Notes under the pieces: generated by a model
The model's input: only the letters and a program-made list of their open reading frames with translations
Databases searched by the model: none
Told to the model about the DNA's origin: nothing
In this document: positions 5,562 to 10,742 of the stretch, in pieces
How the letters are laid out: every line of letters begins with the position of its first letter
Numbering within the stretch: the stretch's first letter is position 1
Source: Candidatus Woesebacteria bacterium
Lineage (GTDB): Bacteria > Patescibacteriota > Microgenomatia > UBA8517
Length of the DNA stretch: 11,418 nucleotides
Reading direction: 5' to 3'
NCBI GenBank assembly: GCA_026394855.1
Contig: JAPLZT010000123.1
Span: 1-11,418, forward strand
Program-made: the position numbers and the translations under genes

Positions 5562-5885
5562 ATGTCAAAAATTTTCTGGGACAAAATAATAGTTTTTGAT
5601 GAAGTTGAAGCAGAGATTAAAAAGGTTGCTAAAACTCCTGAAGAAAAAGAAGAACTCTGGCGAGAGGTAGATGAAATAATTCACCATAAATTAATGGGAT
5701 GCGTATTGGAAAAGCTTCCCGAAAAAAATCATCATGAATTTTTGGAAAAGTTTGAAAAAGCTCCGCAGGACGAAGGACTTTTCAAGTTTTTAACAGAAAA
5801 AGTAGGAGAAGATATTGAAGATTTCTTGAAATTAGAAATGGGAAAGCTAAAAACCGAACTTCTTCAACTAATTAAGGGCAAGTAG
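5562..5885 (+). CDS. Small acidic helical hypothetical protein
   Basis: A 107-residue protein made almost wholly of charged amphipathic helix, rich in Glu and Lys (EEKEELWREVDEIIHHKL, LEKLPEKNHHEFLEKFEKAP, EDIEDFLKLEMGKLKTELLQ). There are no membrane segments, signal peptide or cysteine clusters; the single Cys is near residue 47. The pattern LEKLPEKNHHEFLEKFEKAP resembles short conserved proteins common in Patescibacteria (DUF5663-like), by recollection only. It is the last gene of the gltX run, 6 nt after its neighbour. Its function is unknown. Confidence 0.75.
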   Translation: MSKIFWDKIIVFDEVEAEIKKVAKTPEEKEELWREVDEIIHHKLMGCVLEKLPEKNHHEFLEKFEKAPQDEGLFKFLTEKVGEDIEDFLKLEMGKLKTELLQLIKGK

Positions 5886-5908
5886 CTAAATTTCGTGGTA
5901 AGCAAAGC

Positions 5909-5937
5909 TTGGCCATTTAGCAACTAAATGGTAAAAT
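5909..5937 (+). promoter_or_regulatory. tRNA-type promoter
   Basis: TTGGCC (5909-5914) and TAAAAT (5932-5937) are 17 bp apart, and the tRNA-like 5' end begins at 5948, 10 nt after the -10. This is the spacing expected for a tRNA gene. The -35 keeps only the TTG of the consensus. A perfect 8-bp inverted repeat fills the spacer. Confidence 0.5.
5913..5931. repeat. Perfect 8-bp inverted repeat within the promoter spacer
   Basis: CCATTTAG, loop CAA, CTAAATGG. It could act as an operator or as a weak hairpin ending the upstream operon, but no T-run follows, only TAAAATAG. Confidence 0.6.
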
Positions 5938-5947
5938 AGCCCTATAT

Positions 5948-5967
5948 TGCGGGATCGTCTAATGGTA
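5948..5967 (+). pseudogene. 5' fragment of a tRNA-Gln-like gene
   Basis: TGCGGGA (acceptor strand), TC, GTCT (D-stem) and AATGGTA (D-loop) match the first 20 nt of a bacterial tRNA-Gln. The fragment agrees with the intact tRNA-Gln at 6765 in 16 of 20 positions. It stops in the D-loop: the expected GGAC/AGAC strand does not follow, and AT-rich sequence begins. The differences fall at paired positions (A7, C12), so the fragment would not pair well with the downstream 3' half. It therefore looks like part of a different isoacceptor or an ancestral target gene, not an exon of the intact tRNA. Confidence 0.65.
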
Positions 5968-5971
5968 TAAT
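5963..5971 (+). promoter_or_regulatory. Extended -10 promoter formed at the tRNA fragment junction
   Basis: TGGTATAAT fits the extended -10 consensus TGnTATAAT exactly. The TGG comes from the conserved D-loop AATGGT and the rest from the junction. The GTG start of the endonuclease begins 5 nt downstream, close to the expected transcription start, so a leaderless or near-leaderless message is likely. Confidence 0.55.
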
Positions 5972-5976
5972 TAATT

Positions 5977-6846
5977 GTGGTAAAGAGAAAATTTATTCTT
6001 ACTTCTCCGTGTTTGTTGCCAAAGAATGATCCTAGGTATTTAAAGTGGCGCGAAAGTTTAAAGAAACGTCCTCCTCCATGGTGTAAGGGTAAAAACAAAT
6101 ATACGGATTTAAGCGTGAAGAAAATTTCTGATACTTTTAAGAGAAAGAAAATCGACAACTTTTCTAATTGGCGGATTAATGCCAGAAAGATTGGATTAAT
6201 TCCTTCGTCATACCCAAGTTTAAAAAAAGATCTTAACTTTGCGTTTTTGTTTGGTTTAGTTTTGGGAGATGGCCATATTGATAAATTTCCCAGAACAGAA
6301 AAAATTACTATTGCGTTAGGAACAGATAAACCAAAACTCATTGATTTCACTACCTTAATTGTCGAAAAAGTTTTTTCTAAAAAACCGGCGGTTAAAAAGA
6401 CTAGTTATGCAAATATGGTTAGGGTTTCGTTTTATCAAAAATATATTTCGAAAAGATTAAAAGTTCCTTCAGGAAACCGTGGCAAAATTAGAATTAAAAT
6501 ACCATCTTGGATTAGAACTAATAGAAAATATTTATTGGCGTGTCTTAGAGGTCTTTATGAAGCGGAAGGTTCTTTGTCTATTCATTTACCAACATATACT
6601 TACAATTTTGCCTTTAGTAATAAGAATACATCTCTTCTCAAATTTGTTAGCAAATCCTTAATAGATTTAGGTTTCCATCCCGAGGTTAGATCTTATGCAA
6701 TTAGACTACGTAAGAAGGAAGAGGTAAAATACTTTGGAAACCTAATAAGATTTAGGAAGTATGGTGCGGGGTGGTGTAATGGTTGCACGCGTCCCTCTGG
6801 AGGACGAGATCGGGGTTCAAATCCCTGCCCCGCAGCTCGAGTCTGA
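5977..6846 (+). CDS. LAGLIDADG homing endonuclease inserted at a tRNA-Gln gene, frame continuing through the tRNA
   Basis: Site-specific DNA endonuclease of the kind that spreads by cutting an empty target. Two LAGLIDADG-type motifs are visible, FLFGLVLGDGHID at about residues 90-102 and CLRGLYEAEGSLS at about 189-201, each ending in the metal-binding acidic residue, so it should work as a monomer. A basic N-terminal region with RPPPWCKGKNKYTD precedes them. The start is GTG at 5977: an in-frame TAA at 5968 closes the frame upstream, and the next in-frame ATG lies after the first motif. The domain ends near RFRKYG (base 6764). No stop follows, and the last 27 codons (GAGWCNGCTRPSGG...) are the tRNA gene read in frame, ending with TGA at 6844-6846. 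This tail is probably a by-product of the insertion site. The element sits between a 5' tRNA fragment and a complete tRNA. Confidence 0.88.
   Translation: MVKRKFILTSPCLLPKNDPRYLKWRESLKKRPPPWCKGKNKYTDLSVKKISDTFKRKKIDNFSNWRINARKIGLIPSSYPSLKKDLNFAFLFGLVLGDGHIDKFPRTEKITIALGTDKPKLIDFTTLIVEKVFSKKPAVKKTSYANMVRVSFYQKYISKRLKVPSGNRGKIRIKIPSWIRTNRKYLLACLRGLYEAEGSLSIHLPTYTYNFAFSNKNTSLLKFVSKSLIDLGFHPEVRSYAIRLRKKEEVKYFGNLIRFRKYGAGWCNGCTRPSGGRDRGSNPCPAARV
6765..6835 (+). tRNA. tRNA-Gln (anticodon CUG)
   Basis: Complete 71-nt cloverleaf. Acceptor TGCGGGG pairs with CCCCGCA (6828-6834), with discriminator G at 6835. The D-stem is GTGT/GCAC around AATGGTT, the anticodon arm is CGTCC-CTCTGGA-GGACG, and the T-arm is CGGGG-TTCAAAT-CCCTG. 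U1-A72 with G73 and anticodon CUG are the identity elements of bacterial tRNA-Gln. CCA is not encoded (CTC follows). The gene lies wholly inside the 3' end of the endonuclease frame. A weak candidate -10 (TAAGAT, 6746-6751) lies upstream; otherwise it must be processed from the element's transcript. Confidence 0.93.
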
Positions 6847-7094
6847 CGAGATCCTGAGTTTGCCGAAGGACAATCCATTGCACCCCAGTGACTCGGTTCT
6901 CTAGAAAAGCCCGTGTTTTCCTTCAAAAGTGCTATTTTGAAAGACGAGGAATATGACAGCATTTGCTGACATGTCATCTCAAAGATGTCATAACCGTCTT
7001 CTACCCTCAAAAAACCTCCGTTCGAATCCCTACTTTGTTTGAGTTTATAGCAAATCAAAGATTTGATATGTCAGCTTAAATAGCTGTCATGGGA
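6836..7094. repeat. Noncoding stretch with nested inverted repeats and ATGTCA/TGACAT half-sites
   Basis: No supportable gene is seen in about 260 bp. Inverted pairs found are TTCAAAA/TTTTGAA (6922-6928, 6935-6941), AAGACG/CGTCTT (6941-6946, 6995-7000), TATGACA/TGTCATA (6952-6958, 6986-6992), CAAATC/GATTTG (7051-7056, 7060-7065) and CAGCT/AGCTG (7072-7076, 7082-7086). TGACATGTCA (6967-6976) is a perfect palindrome. ATGACAGC and GCTGACAT (6953-6960, 6965-6972) recur as their reverse complements at 7083-7090 and 7068-7075. It may be an operator cluster, a structured RNA tail or a remnant of a small mobile element. Confidence 0.55.
6852..6870. repeat. Short imperfect inverted repeat of a common dispersed-repeat type
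   Basis: TCCTGAGTTTGCCGAAGGA has TCCT/AGGA ends and resembles a short repeat family (TCCTGAG...CGAAGGA) that I recall as dispersed in many bacterial genomes. There is one copy in this window. It lies between CGAGTC (6838-6843) and GACTCG (6890-6895), a further inverted pair. Confidence 0.35.
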
Positions 7095-7100
7095 TATAAT
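7095..7100 (+). promoter_or_regulatory. -10 box of the gene at 7110
   Basis: Perfect TATAAT, 9 nt before the ATG at 7110, so the transcript has a leader of only a few bases. No convincing -35 is seen; the half-site TGTCAT (7085-7090) lies just upstream. Confidence 0.6.
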
Positions 7101-7109
7101 TGACTGGAT

Positions 7110-7625
7110 ATGACCAAAAAGCTCCTCAATAACAGGTATTTGACTATCGGCGGGGTTCTTTTGGTTCTTGGAGTTTTAGCGTTTTTCTTGCCTAAAAAAC
7201 CAAATATGGATAATTTCAAAGCACCCGGAAGAAGTTGGAACTCTCCAAAGAAAGTTGAAGACTATTTTATTGAAAGATTGCATATGACGTCATTGGAAGC
7301 TTCCGAAATCAGATCAAAGCCTGGCGTTGACGGAACAGTGGATCTTCGAATTAGCACTAACACAACTCTGGCTGGGCTAATCAGTAATCTTGCCTATTAT
7401 GGCTTCGTGCGGGATGAAAATTCACTGCGATATGCACTGGAGCACACAAAGGATGTTACTCCCAGTGATAAAGCAATTATTGTTGATAAAAACCGTACAA
7501 TTGACACAAATGCCGAGTATAGAATTTCGGAAGATATGGATGCTTGGCAGATTGCAGACATTCTCCTTAATAGGCCATCCGGACATTTTATTTTTGACGA
7601 ATACAACTACTTCTTTATGCCCTGA
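7110..7625 (+). CDS. Membrane-anchored protein resembling the N-terminal part of MltG/YceG
   Basis: A 171-residue protein. After a basic start (MTKKLLNNRY), residues about 11-27 (LTIGGVLLVLGVLAFFLP) form one membrane helix, and the rest should lie outside the cell. TTLAGLISNLAYYGFVRDENSLRYALEHTKD and YRISEDMDAWQIADILLNRP resemble the paired LysM-like segments that precede the catalytic domain of endolytic transglycosylase MltG, where the phrase 'AxxIAxxLxxxG' is typical. The catalytic Glu domain of MltG is absent, so it is at most a binding or scaffold relative. The MltG link is inference. The start is supported by TATAAT 9 nt upstream. The 3' end overlaps the convergent small gene by 19 bp. 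Confidence 0.75.
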   Translation: MTKKLLNNRYLTIGGVLLVLGVLAFFLPKKPNMDNFKAPGRSWNSPKKVEDYFIERLHMTSLEASEIRSKPGVDGTVDLRISTNTTLAGLISNLAYYGFVRDENSLRYALEHTKDVTPSDKAIIVDKNRTIDTNAEYRISEDMDAWQIADILLNRPSGHFIFDEYNYFFMP

Positions 7626-8558: not shown

Positions 8559-9659
8559 ATGGCCAATAGTAATTTGCAAGCGGCAAAGGCAGCAAAAAAC
8601 GACGAATTTTATACACAGTACAGCGATATCCAAAAAGAGATTGAAAAGTATCTGGAATATAACCCCGACGTATTTCGAGGCAAGGTGGTGTATTGTAACT
8701 GCGATGATCCGTTTGAGAGTAACTTTTTTCGTTATTTTGTGCTTAATTTCAACAAGCTTAAATTGAAACAGCTTATAACCACTAGTTACAAACCCTCGCC
8801 TGTAGCCAACACTCAGCTGCAACTGTTTGGTGATGACAAGACTCTCCCGAAATTAAAAGGCCGTCCCAAGATAACGGCCAACAAATTCATTGTGAGCGAA
8901 GTGTGCGACATAGACGGCGACGGCGAGTTCAACTTGAAGGATGTTGCCAAGCAATTAAAGGTAAATAAAAATAACGAATGGACGCCACTAGACGGTGATG
9001 GTGACTTCCGTAGCGATGAATGTATAAATTTGCTTAAACAATCTGACATTGTGGTAACAAATCCTCCGTTCAGTCTTTTTCGCGAATATGTTAAACAACT
9101 TTTTGATTACAATAAGAAATTTTTAATTATCGGAAATATTAATTGCATAGCCTATAAAGAGATATTTCAAAAAATTAAGAATAATGAAACATGGCTTGGT
9201 AATGGAATGGGAAGGTGGATTTCTGGATTTATTGTACCAAAATCCTACAAGTTGTACGGAACAGAAGCTCGAATAGATGAAAATGGAGATAGAATTGTTG
9301 CCACCAATAGCTGTTTGTGGCTTACTAATATTGACCATGGACGCCGCCATCAACCGTTGCCACTAATGACCATGGAAGATAATTTGAAATACAGCAAACA
9401 CAAAGAAATCAAAGGCAAAAAAGCCTATGATAAATATGACAATTACGATGCCATAGAAGTGCCTTTTACCGATGCTGTCCCAAGGGATTATCGTGGCGTA
9501 ATGGGCGTGCCAATAACATTTCTTGACAAATACAATCCTGAACAATTTGAACTTATTGGACAAATGGTTACTACAAAAATAGACGAATTTAATCATGGTT
9601 ATCCATATATAAATGGTAAAAAAATATATGCGAGAATTTTAATTAAAAAGAAAAAATAA
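8559..9659 (+). CDS. EcoRI-family adenine-specific DNA methyltransferase
   Basis: Modification enzyme that uses S-adenosylmethionine to N6-methylate adenine in a specific site. The catalytic motif is N168-P-P-F171 within [16 protein letters not shown]. The N-terminal part [21 protein letters not shown] and [18 protein letters not shown] matches the opening of the EcoRI methylase family as I know it. At 366 residues it is longer than M.EcoRI (326), partly through a segment at about 113-150 with D117-I-D-G-D-G-E-F-N and LDGDGDF, which look like EF-hand-type calcium loops. The 5' half is richer in G+C than the 3' half and the neighbours, a sign of transfer. The next gene starts 1 nt after the stop, so both share a transcript. 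The site it modifies cannot be read from sequence. Confidence 0.9.
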
Positions 9660-9660
9660 T

Positions 9661-10742
9661 ATGAAAACAATTTTAATAACCAACATTACTGTTAAGGATA
9701 TTTGCGAAGGGTTTGTCTATAACGAACTTGAGGGCAAGGGTTTGTTTGGCTTGAGCGGTAAACTAACTATCCAGCCTGAATATCAACGCAATTATATCTA
9801 TTCTTCCGATGGAGGCAAAAAAGAAATGGCTGTCATCGAATCAATCCTGAAAGGCTATCCAATAGGATTGATTTATTTCAATAAAGTGAGTGAAGATAAT
9901 CTGGAAGTTTTGGATGGTCAACAACGCATCACTAGTCTGGGGCGGTTTATAAATGACAAATTTGCAATAAAAGACGAAAGCGGCATGGAGCAATATTTTG
10001 GCGGAATGGCAAAAGATAAACAGGCCAAAATTTTGGAAACAAAACTTCTTATTTACGAATGCGAGGGCGTTGAGAGTGAAATAAAAAAGTGGTTTGAAAC
10101 TATAAATATAGCTGGAGTACCGCTTAGCTCTCAAGAGTTGTTAAACGCAATATATTCAGGGCCATTTGTAACATTATGTAAAGAAGAGTTTAGCAACACT
10201 CAAAACGCCAATATCCAAAAATGGAGTGCTTATATTAAGGGCAGCGCCAACCGACAAGAGTTTTTAGAATGTGCTCTTGATTGGGTAAGTAAAGGTCTAG
10301 CGTATTTACCGACGTTGAAAGTGAGATGCGCGGATTAATGTGGGGAAGACTGTATGAAGAATATCATAAGAAAGCCTATAACCCGATTAAGGTGTCAGCC
10401 GAGGTACAAAAGCTCTACGCGGATCCTTATGTCAGAAATCGCAGGGGAATTTTTGAGTATATTCTCGGAGGCTCAGTTGACACGAAATTGCTGGAGGTAC
10501 GCGTATTTGACGATGCGACTAAAAAATCAGTGTATACGAAACAGACTTCAACGGCTGAAGCTAAGGGCGAATCTAACTGTCCGCATTGCGCCATAGGACA
10601 CGATGTTAATAAGGGGAAAGTCTGGAAGTTAGATGAAATGGATGCCGATCACGTCGCGGCATGGAGTAAAGGCGGTGCGACGTCTGCTAGTAACTGCCAG
10701 ATGTTGTGCAAGACACACAATAGGGCAAAAGGAAATCGATAA
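9661..10742 (+). pseudogene. DUF262-HNH nuclease gene disrupted by an internal deletion or frameshift
   Basis: The two halves are in different frames. The first half (9661 to about 10295, 212 family-like residues) is a DUF262 domain with [10 protein letters not shown] at 38-47, DGQQR at 85-89 and [17 protein letters not shown] at 144-160. It then runs into an unrelated tail and stops at 10338. The second half is readable from 10296 ([14 protein letters not shown]...) to 10742 and carries a zinc-binding HNH domain: CPHC, DADH, ASNCQ and [10 protein letters not shown]. The switch is near 10291-10296, where ALDWVSKG meets SSVFTDVE. Family members as I recall them have about 35-40 more residues there, so a non-triplet deletion is likely. 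Placement 1 nt after the methylase suggests it was the restriction partner. A sequencing error is the alternative. Confidence 0.8.
10326..10742 (+). CDS. C-terminal HNH fragment of the broken nuclease
   Basis: If translated on its own from the ATG at 10326 this gives 138 residues that include the complete HNH motif set. The CPHC knuckle, the DEMDADH histidine, the central Asn in ASNCQ and the [10 protein letters not shown] end are all intact, so the nuclease domain itself is undamaged while its link to DUF262 is lost. No ribosome-binding site or promoter is evident, so separate expression is doubtful. It belongs to the pseudogene entry starting at 9661. Confidence 0.6.

Follow-up and report, generated by a model that had tools for sequence, protein, structure and literature searches.

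We propose that the window, by which we mean the whole 11,418-nt stretch of DNA analysed here (contig C31 of an 835-kb genome in 159 contigs, G000), probably contains a LAGLIDADG homing element that is specialised on the tRNA-Gln(CUG) gene and carries an altered replacement for the 5' half of this gene, which it would cut. The architecture of the locus and the logic of replacement are well supported; we infer cleavage, immunity and activity of a promoter at the junction from the sequences. The features of the locus are as follows.

5909..5937, + strand: probable original promoter of the tRNA-Gln gene, TTGGCC-17-TAAAAT with TG before the -10 (consensus scan, weak alone; placement of TAAAAT in uninvaded loci)
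5948..5967, + strand: remnant of the interrupted tRNA-Gln gene, nucleotides 1-20, TGCGGGATCGTCTAATGGTA (20/20 against an uninvaded tRNA-Gln(CUG))
5963..5971, + strand: predicted extended -10, TGG-TATAAT, made up of remnant (TGGTA) and insert edge (TAAT) (by eye)
5968..6764, + strand: insert, 797 nt (sequence)
5977..6846, + strand: LAGLIDADG homing-endonuclease-like ORF with a GTG start, 289 amino acids (289 codons) (LAGLIDADG_3; structure model)
6765..6783, + strand: carried replacement 5' half, TGCGGGGTGGTGTAATGGT, with mismatches to the remnant at 7, 9 and 12 (sequence alignment)
6765..6836, + strand: intact tRNA-Gln(CUG) (ARAGORN, anticodon ctg; Rfam tRNA, 60.4 bits)

The order of fragment, endonuclease and complete tRNA-Gln(CUG), which had been described in the initial annotation, is borne out by the fragment at 5948-5967, the LAGLIDADG_3 match of the ORF, and the ARAGORN and Rfam calls at 6765-6836. 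The tRNA-type promoter placed upstream of it is also found, but the consensus match alone proves little, as the scan gave five sites of the TTGGCC-17-TAAAAT kind against a mean of 2.8 in shuffled sequences. By eye, TAAAAT is located 9-10 nt ahead of the intact tRNA-Gln in the uninvaded loci L039, L128 and L320, as it is ahead of the fragment. The endonuclease had been thought to end before the tRNA. Instead, the ORF, which takes up 788 of the 797 bases of the insert, meets no stop before 6846 and reads on in frame through the tRNA gene, with residues 263-289 (approximately 27) being tRNA-encoded. The genome also contains a separate tRNA-Gln(UUG), at G000:C116, the presence of which had been suggested as a check.

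Two further parts of the window are worth recording. An EcoRI-type methylase, a gene with a GmrSD_N domain and an HNH gene are found consecutively at 8559-10742, possibly forming a restriction-modification cluster. Following the tRNA-Gln(CUG), at 6880-6960, there is a partly conserved stretch (GGGCACCC..GTGACCG..GAAAAGC), possibly an unknown RNA, which is also seen in L052, L059, L060 and L124. By alignment only, it is common to loci of different families, both with and without an insertion, and it had no convincing match in Rfam.

Aligned with the window's own intact tRNA over positions 1-19, the fragment shows three differences (p<=0.003), and position 20 differs as well. Thus, the differences at positions 7 and 12 pointed out in the initial annotation are both present, but that list was incomplete in omitting position 9 (and 20). 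In contrast, the fragment is identical over positions 1-20 to an uninvaded tRNA-Gln(CUG), that of G327, whose genome is from another family in the same class as the window's genome (p 0.0005, which is the floor of 2000 shuffles). The simplest reading is that the fragment preserves the gene start in its ordinary form, and that it is the downstream copy which has been altered.

Related endonuclease genes of the same Gln type are located just before tRNA-Gln(CUG) in ten genomes of tiny uncultured bacteria, all from the sets searched (50 family, 57 order, 373 class, 45 f5-family and 379 phylum genomes, the sets overlapping): G000 (the window), G104 (L070), G205 (L071), G248 (L072), G320 (L073), G236 (L074), G339 (L075), G004 (L034), G472 (L181) and G524 (L182). 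L070 is also L059, in Amesbacteria LCKS01000001.1, and L034 is also L060, in Woesebacteria MGGO01000031.1. Metagenome assemblies are among the genomes and the families are not independent samples; at the level of the class, the gene is found in 8 of 373 genomes. The flanks of these homologues agree with what the initial annotation had led us to look for, namely a 5' tRNA fragment upstream and an intact tRNA downstream. The downstream tRNA-Gln(CUG) was called by ARAGORN in 8 of the 10 loci and read by eye in L071 and L075, which run into masked stretches; the tRNA starts 10 nt after the ORF in L071 and 65 nt after the endonuclease match in L075. On the upstream side, the remnant is significantly similar to an uninvaded 5' half in 8 of the 9 readable loci (uncorrected p 0.0005-0.004), L181 having been left out because its upstream side is off the contig. 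In all eight significant loci, the endonucleases of which are divergent, the last base of the remnant corresponds to tRNA position 20 or 21. In L072 nothing more than AATGGTA is left (p 0.38), spaced from the start codon as in the other loci. When compared with their own downstream tRNA alone, the remnants of L070, L072, L073 and L034 are weak. The ORF overlaps the start of the tRNA in 5 of the 6 scored Gln loci. Decayed copies are found in L034 (internal loss), in L182 (two stops) and probably in L075 (a first ORF of 49 codons), and would be compatible with the life cycle of a homing gene.

Empty and occupied sites can be compared within genus g102, which comprises 12 genomes. Eleven of these have gltX, and the same small gene, ending in ..GW[GS]L..P[HRK], follows gltX in 11 of the 11 loci examined. 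In six genomes (L128, L129, L130, L131, L132 and L134) the tRNA-Gln(CUG) is uninterrupted. Each of these empty loci has a single tRNA-Gln, none of them was flagged as having a 5' fragment, and one has exactly the sequence of the window's fragment; the comparison with close genomes that lack the element, which had been suggested previously, is therefore in agreement with the proposed interruption. Four further g102 loci are occupied, two by LAGLIDADG genes (L071 and L072) and two by GIY-YIG genes in the same layout (L124 and L125), and in L127 another sequence follows the promoter, with no tRNA found. The LAGLIDADG proteins of L071 and L072 belong to different supported clades in a tree of 128 proteins, and therefore the two loci represent independent invasions. 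Genus g93 comprises two genomes: in G175, TTAAAATTAGCCGTAT precedes a tRNA-Gln(CUG) that is uninterrupted, and in G104, GATAAAATTAGC precedes the remnant, as judged by eye from these sequences alone. Together, the recurrence of remnant and downstream tRNA-Gln(CUG) in the homologues and the uninterrupted state of the empty loci uphold the earlier suggestion that the element carries a replacement 5' half.

The ORF product matches Pfam LAGLIDADG_3 (E 4e-9), with conserved GDG and EAE columns in the alignment of the protein. In an AlphaFold2 model based on a 38-row alignment, the two-repeat core (residues ~86-256) is predicted with confidence, and the tRNA-encoded tail has pLDDT<50. The closest solved folds are I-DmoI chains (Foldseek E 5e-8; profile search E 6e-4). 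The protein has the two LAGLIDADG motifs and the alpha-beta-beta fold of LAGLIDADG homing endonucleases, and its scattered occurrence at a single site, where some copies have decayed, is likewise characteristic of homing endonucleases. Identity between the window and L070 at the three codon positions is 67/80/43%, which fits purifying selection. Among 121 proteins (the query and 120 listed of 980 matches), 20 have tails ending in AG[WL][SC], 30 end in AG directly before the stop, 2 end in AGS[VA]NG and 69 have other endings; thus, the tails of 52 of the 121 proteins are consistent with a translated tRNA start. None of the 121 has the AGSSNG tail expected from an unaltered tRNA start. On viral contigs, no relative was confirmed.

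The tRNA genes downstream of the endonuclease are altered in the D-arm. The core TCGTCTAAYGG (positions 8-18 of the intact tRNA) is present in 0 of the 10 LAGLIDADG loci, of which eight were scored by script and L071 (TCATCTAACGG) and L075 (TCGTCTAATTGG) were read from the sequence. In the comparison set, consisting of the 30 best loci from a query with the D-arm core masked, the core is present in 10 of 18 CUG genes (including one GIY-YIG locus, L292 in G113) and in 10 of 12 UUG genes. The difference from the CUG genes is significant (Fisher p 0.004, or p 0.009 with only the eight script-scored loci). With fragments and tRNAs compared in the same 9 loci, CGTCTA is found in seven fragments and one tRNA (p 0.015). 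Loci with a GIY-YIG or HNH-like ORF have the core in 9 of 9 cases (p 1e-5 versus the LAGLIDADG loci), six of the nine originating from a search with a query that contained the core. Where no endonuclease was detected, 48 of 73 CUG genes have the core; the query behind this sample favours genes with the core, and the masked-query sample was therefore used for the main test.

Resistance of the carried copy to cutting would lead one to expect an altered core, as seen in all ten invaded tRNAs. Altered cores also arise where no endonuclease gene is now present, because the core is missing from 8 of the 18 comparison tRNA-Gln(CUG) genes, from 3 of the 6 empty g102 loci and from the G175 gene (TCGGCTAACGG). 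The tRNA-Gln(UUG) genes of two hosts, L321 in G104 and L253 in G236, speak against immunity, as the core is intact in both and they would be cut if the enzyme recognised nothing else. Presumably, recognition extends past the core, into the 3' side.

We hypothesize that the endonuclease cuts an uninterrupted tRNA-Gln gene in the D-arm near position 20, at TCGTCTAAYGGTA^GGAC. The break would be repaired from an element-bearing copy, with the upstream flank and 5' half serving as the left arm and the 3' half and downstream flank as the right arm, and this repair would copy in the endonuclease gene and a second 5' half. What the comparison of loci shows is the state that such an event would leave behind: the old 5' half remains as a stranded piece, the tRNA downstream of the endonuclease gene is intact but has an altered D-arm, and the ORF enters this tRNA. 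The altered D-arm would resist re-cleavage, and thus provide immunity in addition to rescue. The direct repeats formed by the remnant and the new 5' half would permit precise loss of the element.

We speculate that the insertion also creates the promoter of the endonuclease gene, with TGGTA of the remnant and TAAT of the insert forming its -10 element. By eye, 7 of 9 loci have an extended -10-like box across the junction, consisting of (T/C)GGTA followed by TAAT, AAAT, CAAT or TATT, with the start codon 5-6 nt later; in L074 and L182 the box is located further into the insert. The start codon, in our assignment, is 9-10 nt after GGTA in 7 of 9 loci. The junction box predicts a leaderless endonuclease mRNA that would exist only after insertion. 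The intact tRNA may be transcribed from the original promoter and freed from the shared transcript by RNase P, or may have its own start within the ORF, where 6702-6730 resembles a promoter.

Among the alternatives, the one that survives best, although we consider it unlikely, is that a tandem duplication by slippage or of a hairpin unit came first, and that the endonuclease gene settled later in the harmless spacer, which would make the rescue logic unnecessary. The basis for this scenario is a set of 12 among 134 tRNA-Gln genes (a count that omits 6 genes with <300 nt upstream) that have a 5' fragment 17-98 nt upstream without a detected endonuclease, from which it follows that 5' duplication occurs without an endonuclease gene now present. 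These loci (L120, L122, L119, L213, L215, L221, L225, L106, L277, L227, L237 and L044) have hairpin or tandem-repeat cargo before an intact tRNA-Gln; by eye, hairpins are seen in L120, L237 and L122, and a plain tandem repeat in L044. L237 has two 5' tRNA-Gln fragments in a row. However, a prior duplication does not predict the altered core in 10 of 10 loci. It is also at odds with the shared end point of all eight significant remnants next to divergent endonucleases, with the overlap between ORF and tRNA start, and with the six empty g102 loci, where no fragment was flagged.

Less probable still is that the LAGLIDADG protein has been domesticated, for instance as a WhiA-like regulator of tRNA-Gln expression. 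WhiA chains are found among the fold matches, the junction promoter is predicted, and the two relatives tested (P0118 and P0034) match WhiA-LAGLIDADG weakly, with E values of 2e-4 to 3e-4 that fall short of the cutoff, P0034 also having a weak ROS/MUCR match. The patchy distribution in the class, the decayed copies and the top solved folds, which are those of homing endonucleases, argue against such a role. The initial annotation had raised a tandem pair of isoacceptors of which the first lost its 3' half, and two tRNA-Gln(CUG) genes are indeed close together in L056. With a single tRNA-Gln at each of the six empty g102 loci, and significant remnants ending at 20-21, a lost isoacceptor is not supported, and we regard a relic of this kind as highly improbable. 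Finally, we attach next to no probability to a self-splicing or bulge-helix-bulge intron in the D-loop and reject a splicing intron: although the ORF sits within a tRNA gene, and CPR rRNA genes have introns with LAGLIDADG genes (PMC11270868), here the ORF leaves no room for an intron fold, a full tRNA follows, so that no 3' exon is needed, as had been noted before, A7 of the fragment would face a C of the downstream acceptor, and neither the ribozyme (no group I/II match at E<=10 with Rfam in 5880-7120) nor the exon continuity of an intron-encoded endonuclease gene was found.

The homing interpretation may extend to other endonuclease families in front of the same gene. A GIY-YIG ORF is located upstream in 8 of 157 distinct tRNA-Gln genes. 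Six of these loci are clear by inspection, having a hairpin-broken 5' tRNA-Gln piece, the ORF and an intact tRNA in this order (L047, L124, L125, L250, L274 and L288); L275 is doubtful and L102 is without a 5' piece. The two GIY-YIG proteins tested match PF01541. An ORF in L246, HNH-like by eye, has the same layout, and had no Pfam match at E<=0.001. A uniform cut-off on the fragment score was passed by 5 of 8 GIY-YIG and 4 of 8 LAGLIDADG loci. We tentatively suggest, with slightly less than even confidence, that Patescibacteria host natural home-and-rescue elements, in which several unrelated types of endonuclease (LAGLIDADG, GIY-YIG and possibly HNH) have each entered tRNA-Gln genes independently, leaving the native 5' half stranded and supplying one of their own, with the LAGLIDADG type bringing a cleavage-resistant version and being switched on by a -10 promoter completed with D-loop bases of the target.

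More distant LAGLIDADG relatives are located just before tRNA-Ser, tRNA-Tyr and tRNA-Phe genes and just after tRNA-Leu(CAA). Two of these genes, members of the same superfamily, are in the window's genome, before tRNA-Phe (G000:C133:11-262) and before tRNA-Ser(GGA) (G000:C28:12068-12493); the latter has a scaffold gap beside a repeated part of the tRNA. LAGLIDADG genes directly 3' of an intact tRNA-Leu(CAA) are seen in L186, L189, L196, L160 and L199, and in L160 a remnant resembling the 3' part of tRNA-Leu follows the gene by eye, possibly in a mirror-image arrangement. Overlap with the tRNA start is found for 33 of 46 scored LAGLIDADG ORFs (6 of them Gln), in loci that were chosen for a downstream tRNA. 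Among 40 non-Gln LAGLIDADG loci, a 5' remnant has p<0.05 in five, which is not significant in combination (p 0.14), and is clear in L084 and L092; we do not claim generality to tRNA-Ser, tRNA-Tyr or other LAGLIDADG loci. The initial annotation had regarded homologues next to unrelated tRNAs, or without an upstream fragment, as evidence against its model. The Gln group, with remnants in 8 of 9 loci, sustains the model, but the distant homologues at tRNA-Ser, Tyr, Phe and Leu, in few of which a remnant is clear, in part count against it.

Tyrosine-recombinase islands regenerate tRNA 3' ends, and resemble the element described here in carrying the piece that restores the tRNA. In contrast to these islands, the element would home via a double-strand break and restores the 5' rather than the 3' part; an integrase gene and a 3' att repeat were not found, and the insert is almost wholly LAGLIDADG ORF. 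Synthetic home-and-rescue and cleave-and-rescue drives similarly combine a nuclease with a recoded rescue copy of its own target, whereas the element is natural and compact (0.8 kb), and has a tRNA as the target of its putative cleavage.

The closest known systems are the mobile ORFs (mORFs) of fungal mitochondria, which duplicate gene ends and have been described for atp6 in Allomyces and for atp6, atp9, cox2 and nad3 in Glomus (PMC3630166). Both mORFs and the present element consist of a free endonuclease ORF in a gene and of a diverged duplicate of the gene end, which takes the place of the displaced native end and restores the gene (PMC3630166); here, function of the restored tRNA is deduced from its fold. 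However, mORFs act on mitochondrial protein genes, the 3' ends of which they replace (PMC3630166), whereas the element replaces the 5' half of a bacterial tRNA gene, alters the core of its D-arm and is predicted to have a promoter at the junction. Insertion sequences in CPR rRNA genes occur in the same bacteria, encode LAGLIDADG proteins including LAGLIDADG_3 and target RNA genes, but they are located within rRNA genes and some are group I/II introns (PMC11270868), whereas the present element has none and restores its target at the DNA level. Phage SegB is a homing endonuclease linked to phage tRNA genes. Its setting is a phage, and the text covered has no duplicated 5' half (PMC13096335). We found no title or abstract in the open-licence PMC literature describing a homing endonuclease gene that duplicates the 5' half of a bacterial tRNA, an absence that carries little weight.

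Our interpretation predicts that a D-arm of the fragment type is cut, and that the carried D-arm is spared. If cleavage is confirmed, a homing gene can live inside a tRNA gene without splicing, at the price of supplying a resistant spare part, and the element would provide a natural and very small model for rescue drives. It would also point to convergence of endonuclease families on one gene, and offer one explanation for the broken tRNA pieces in CPR genomes.
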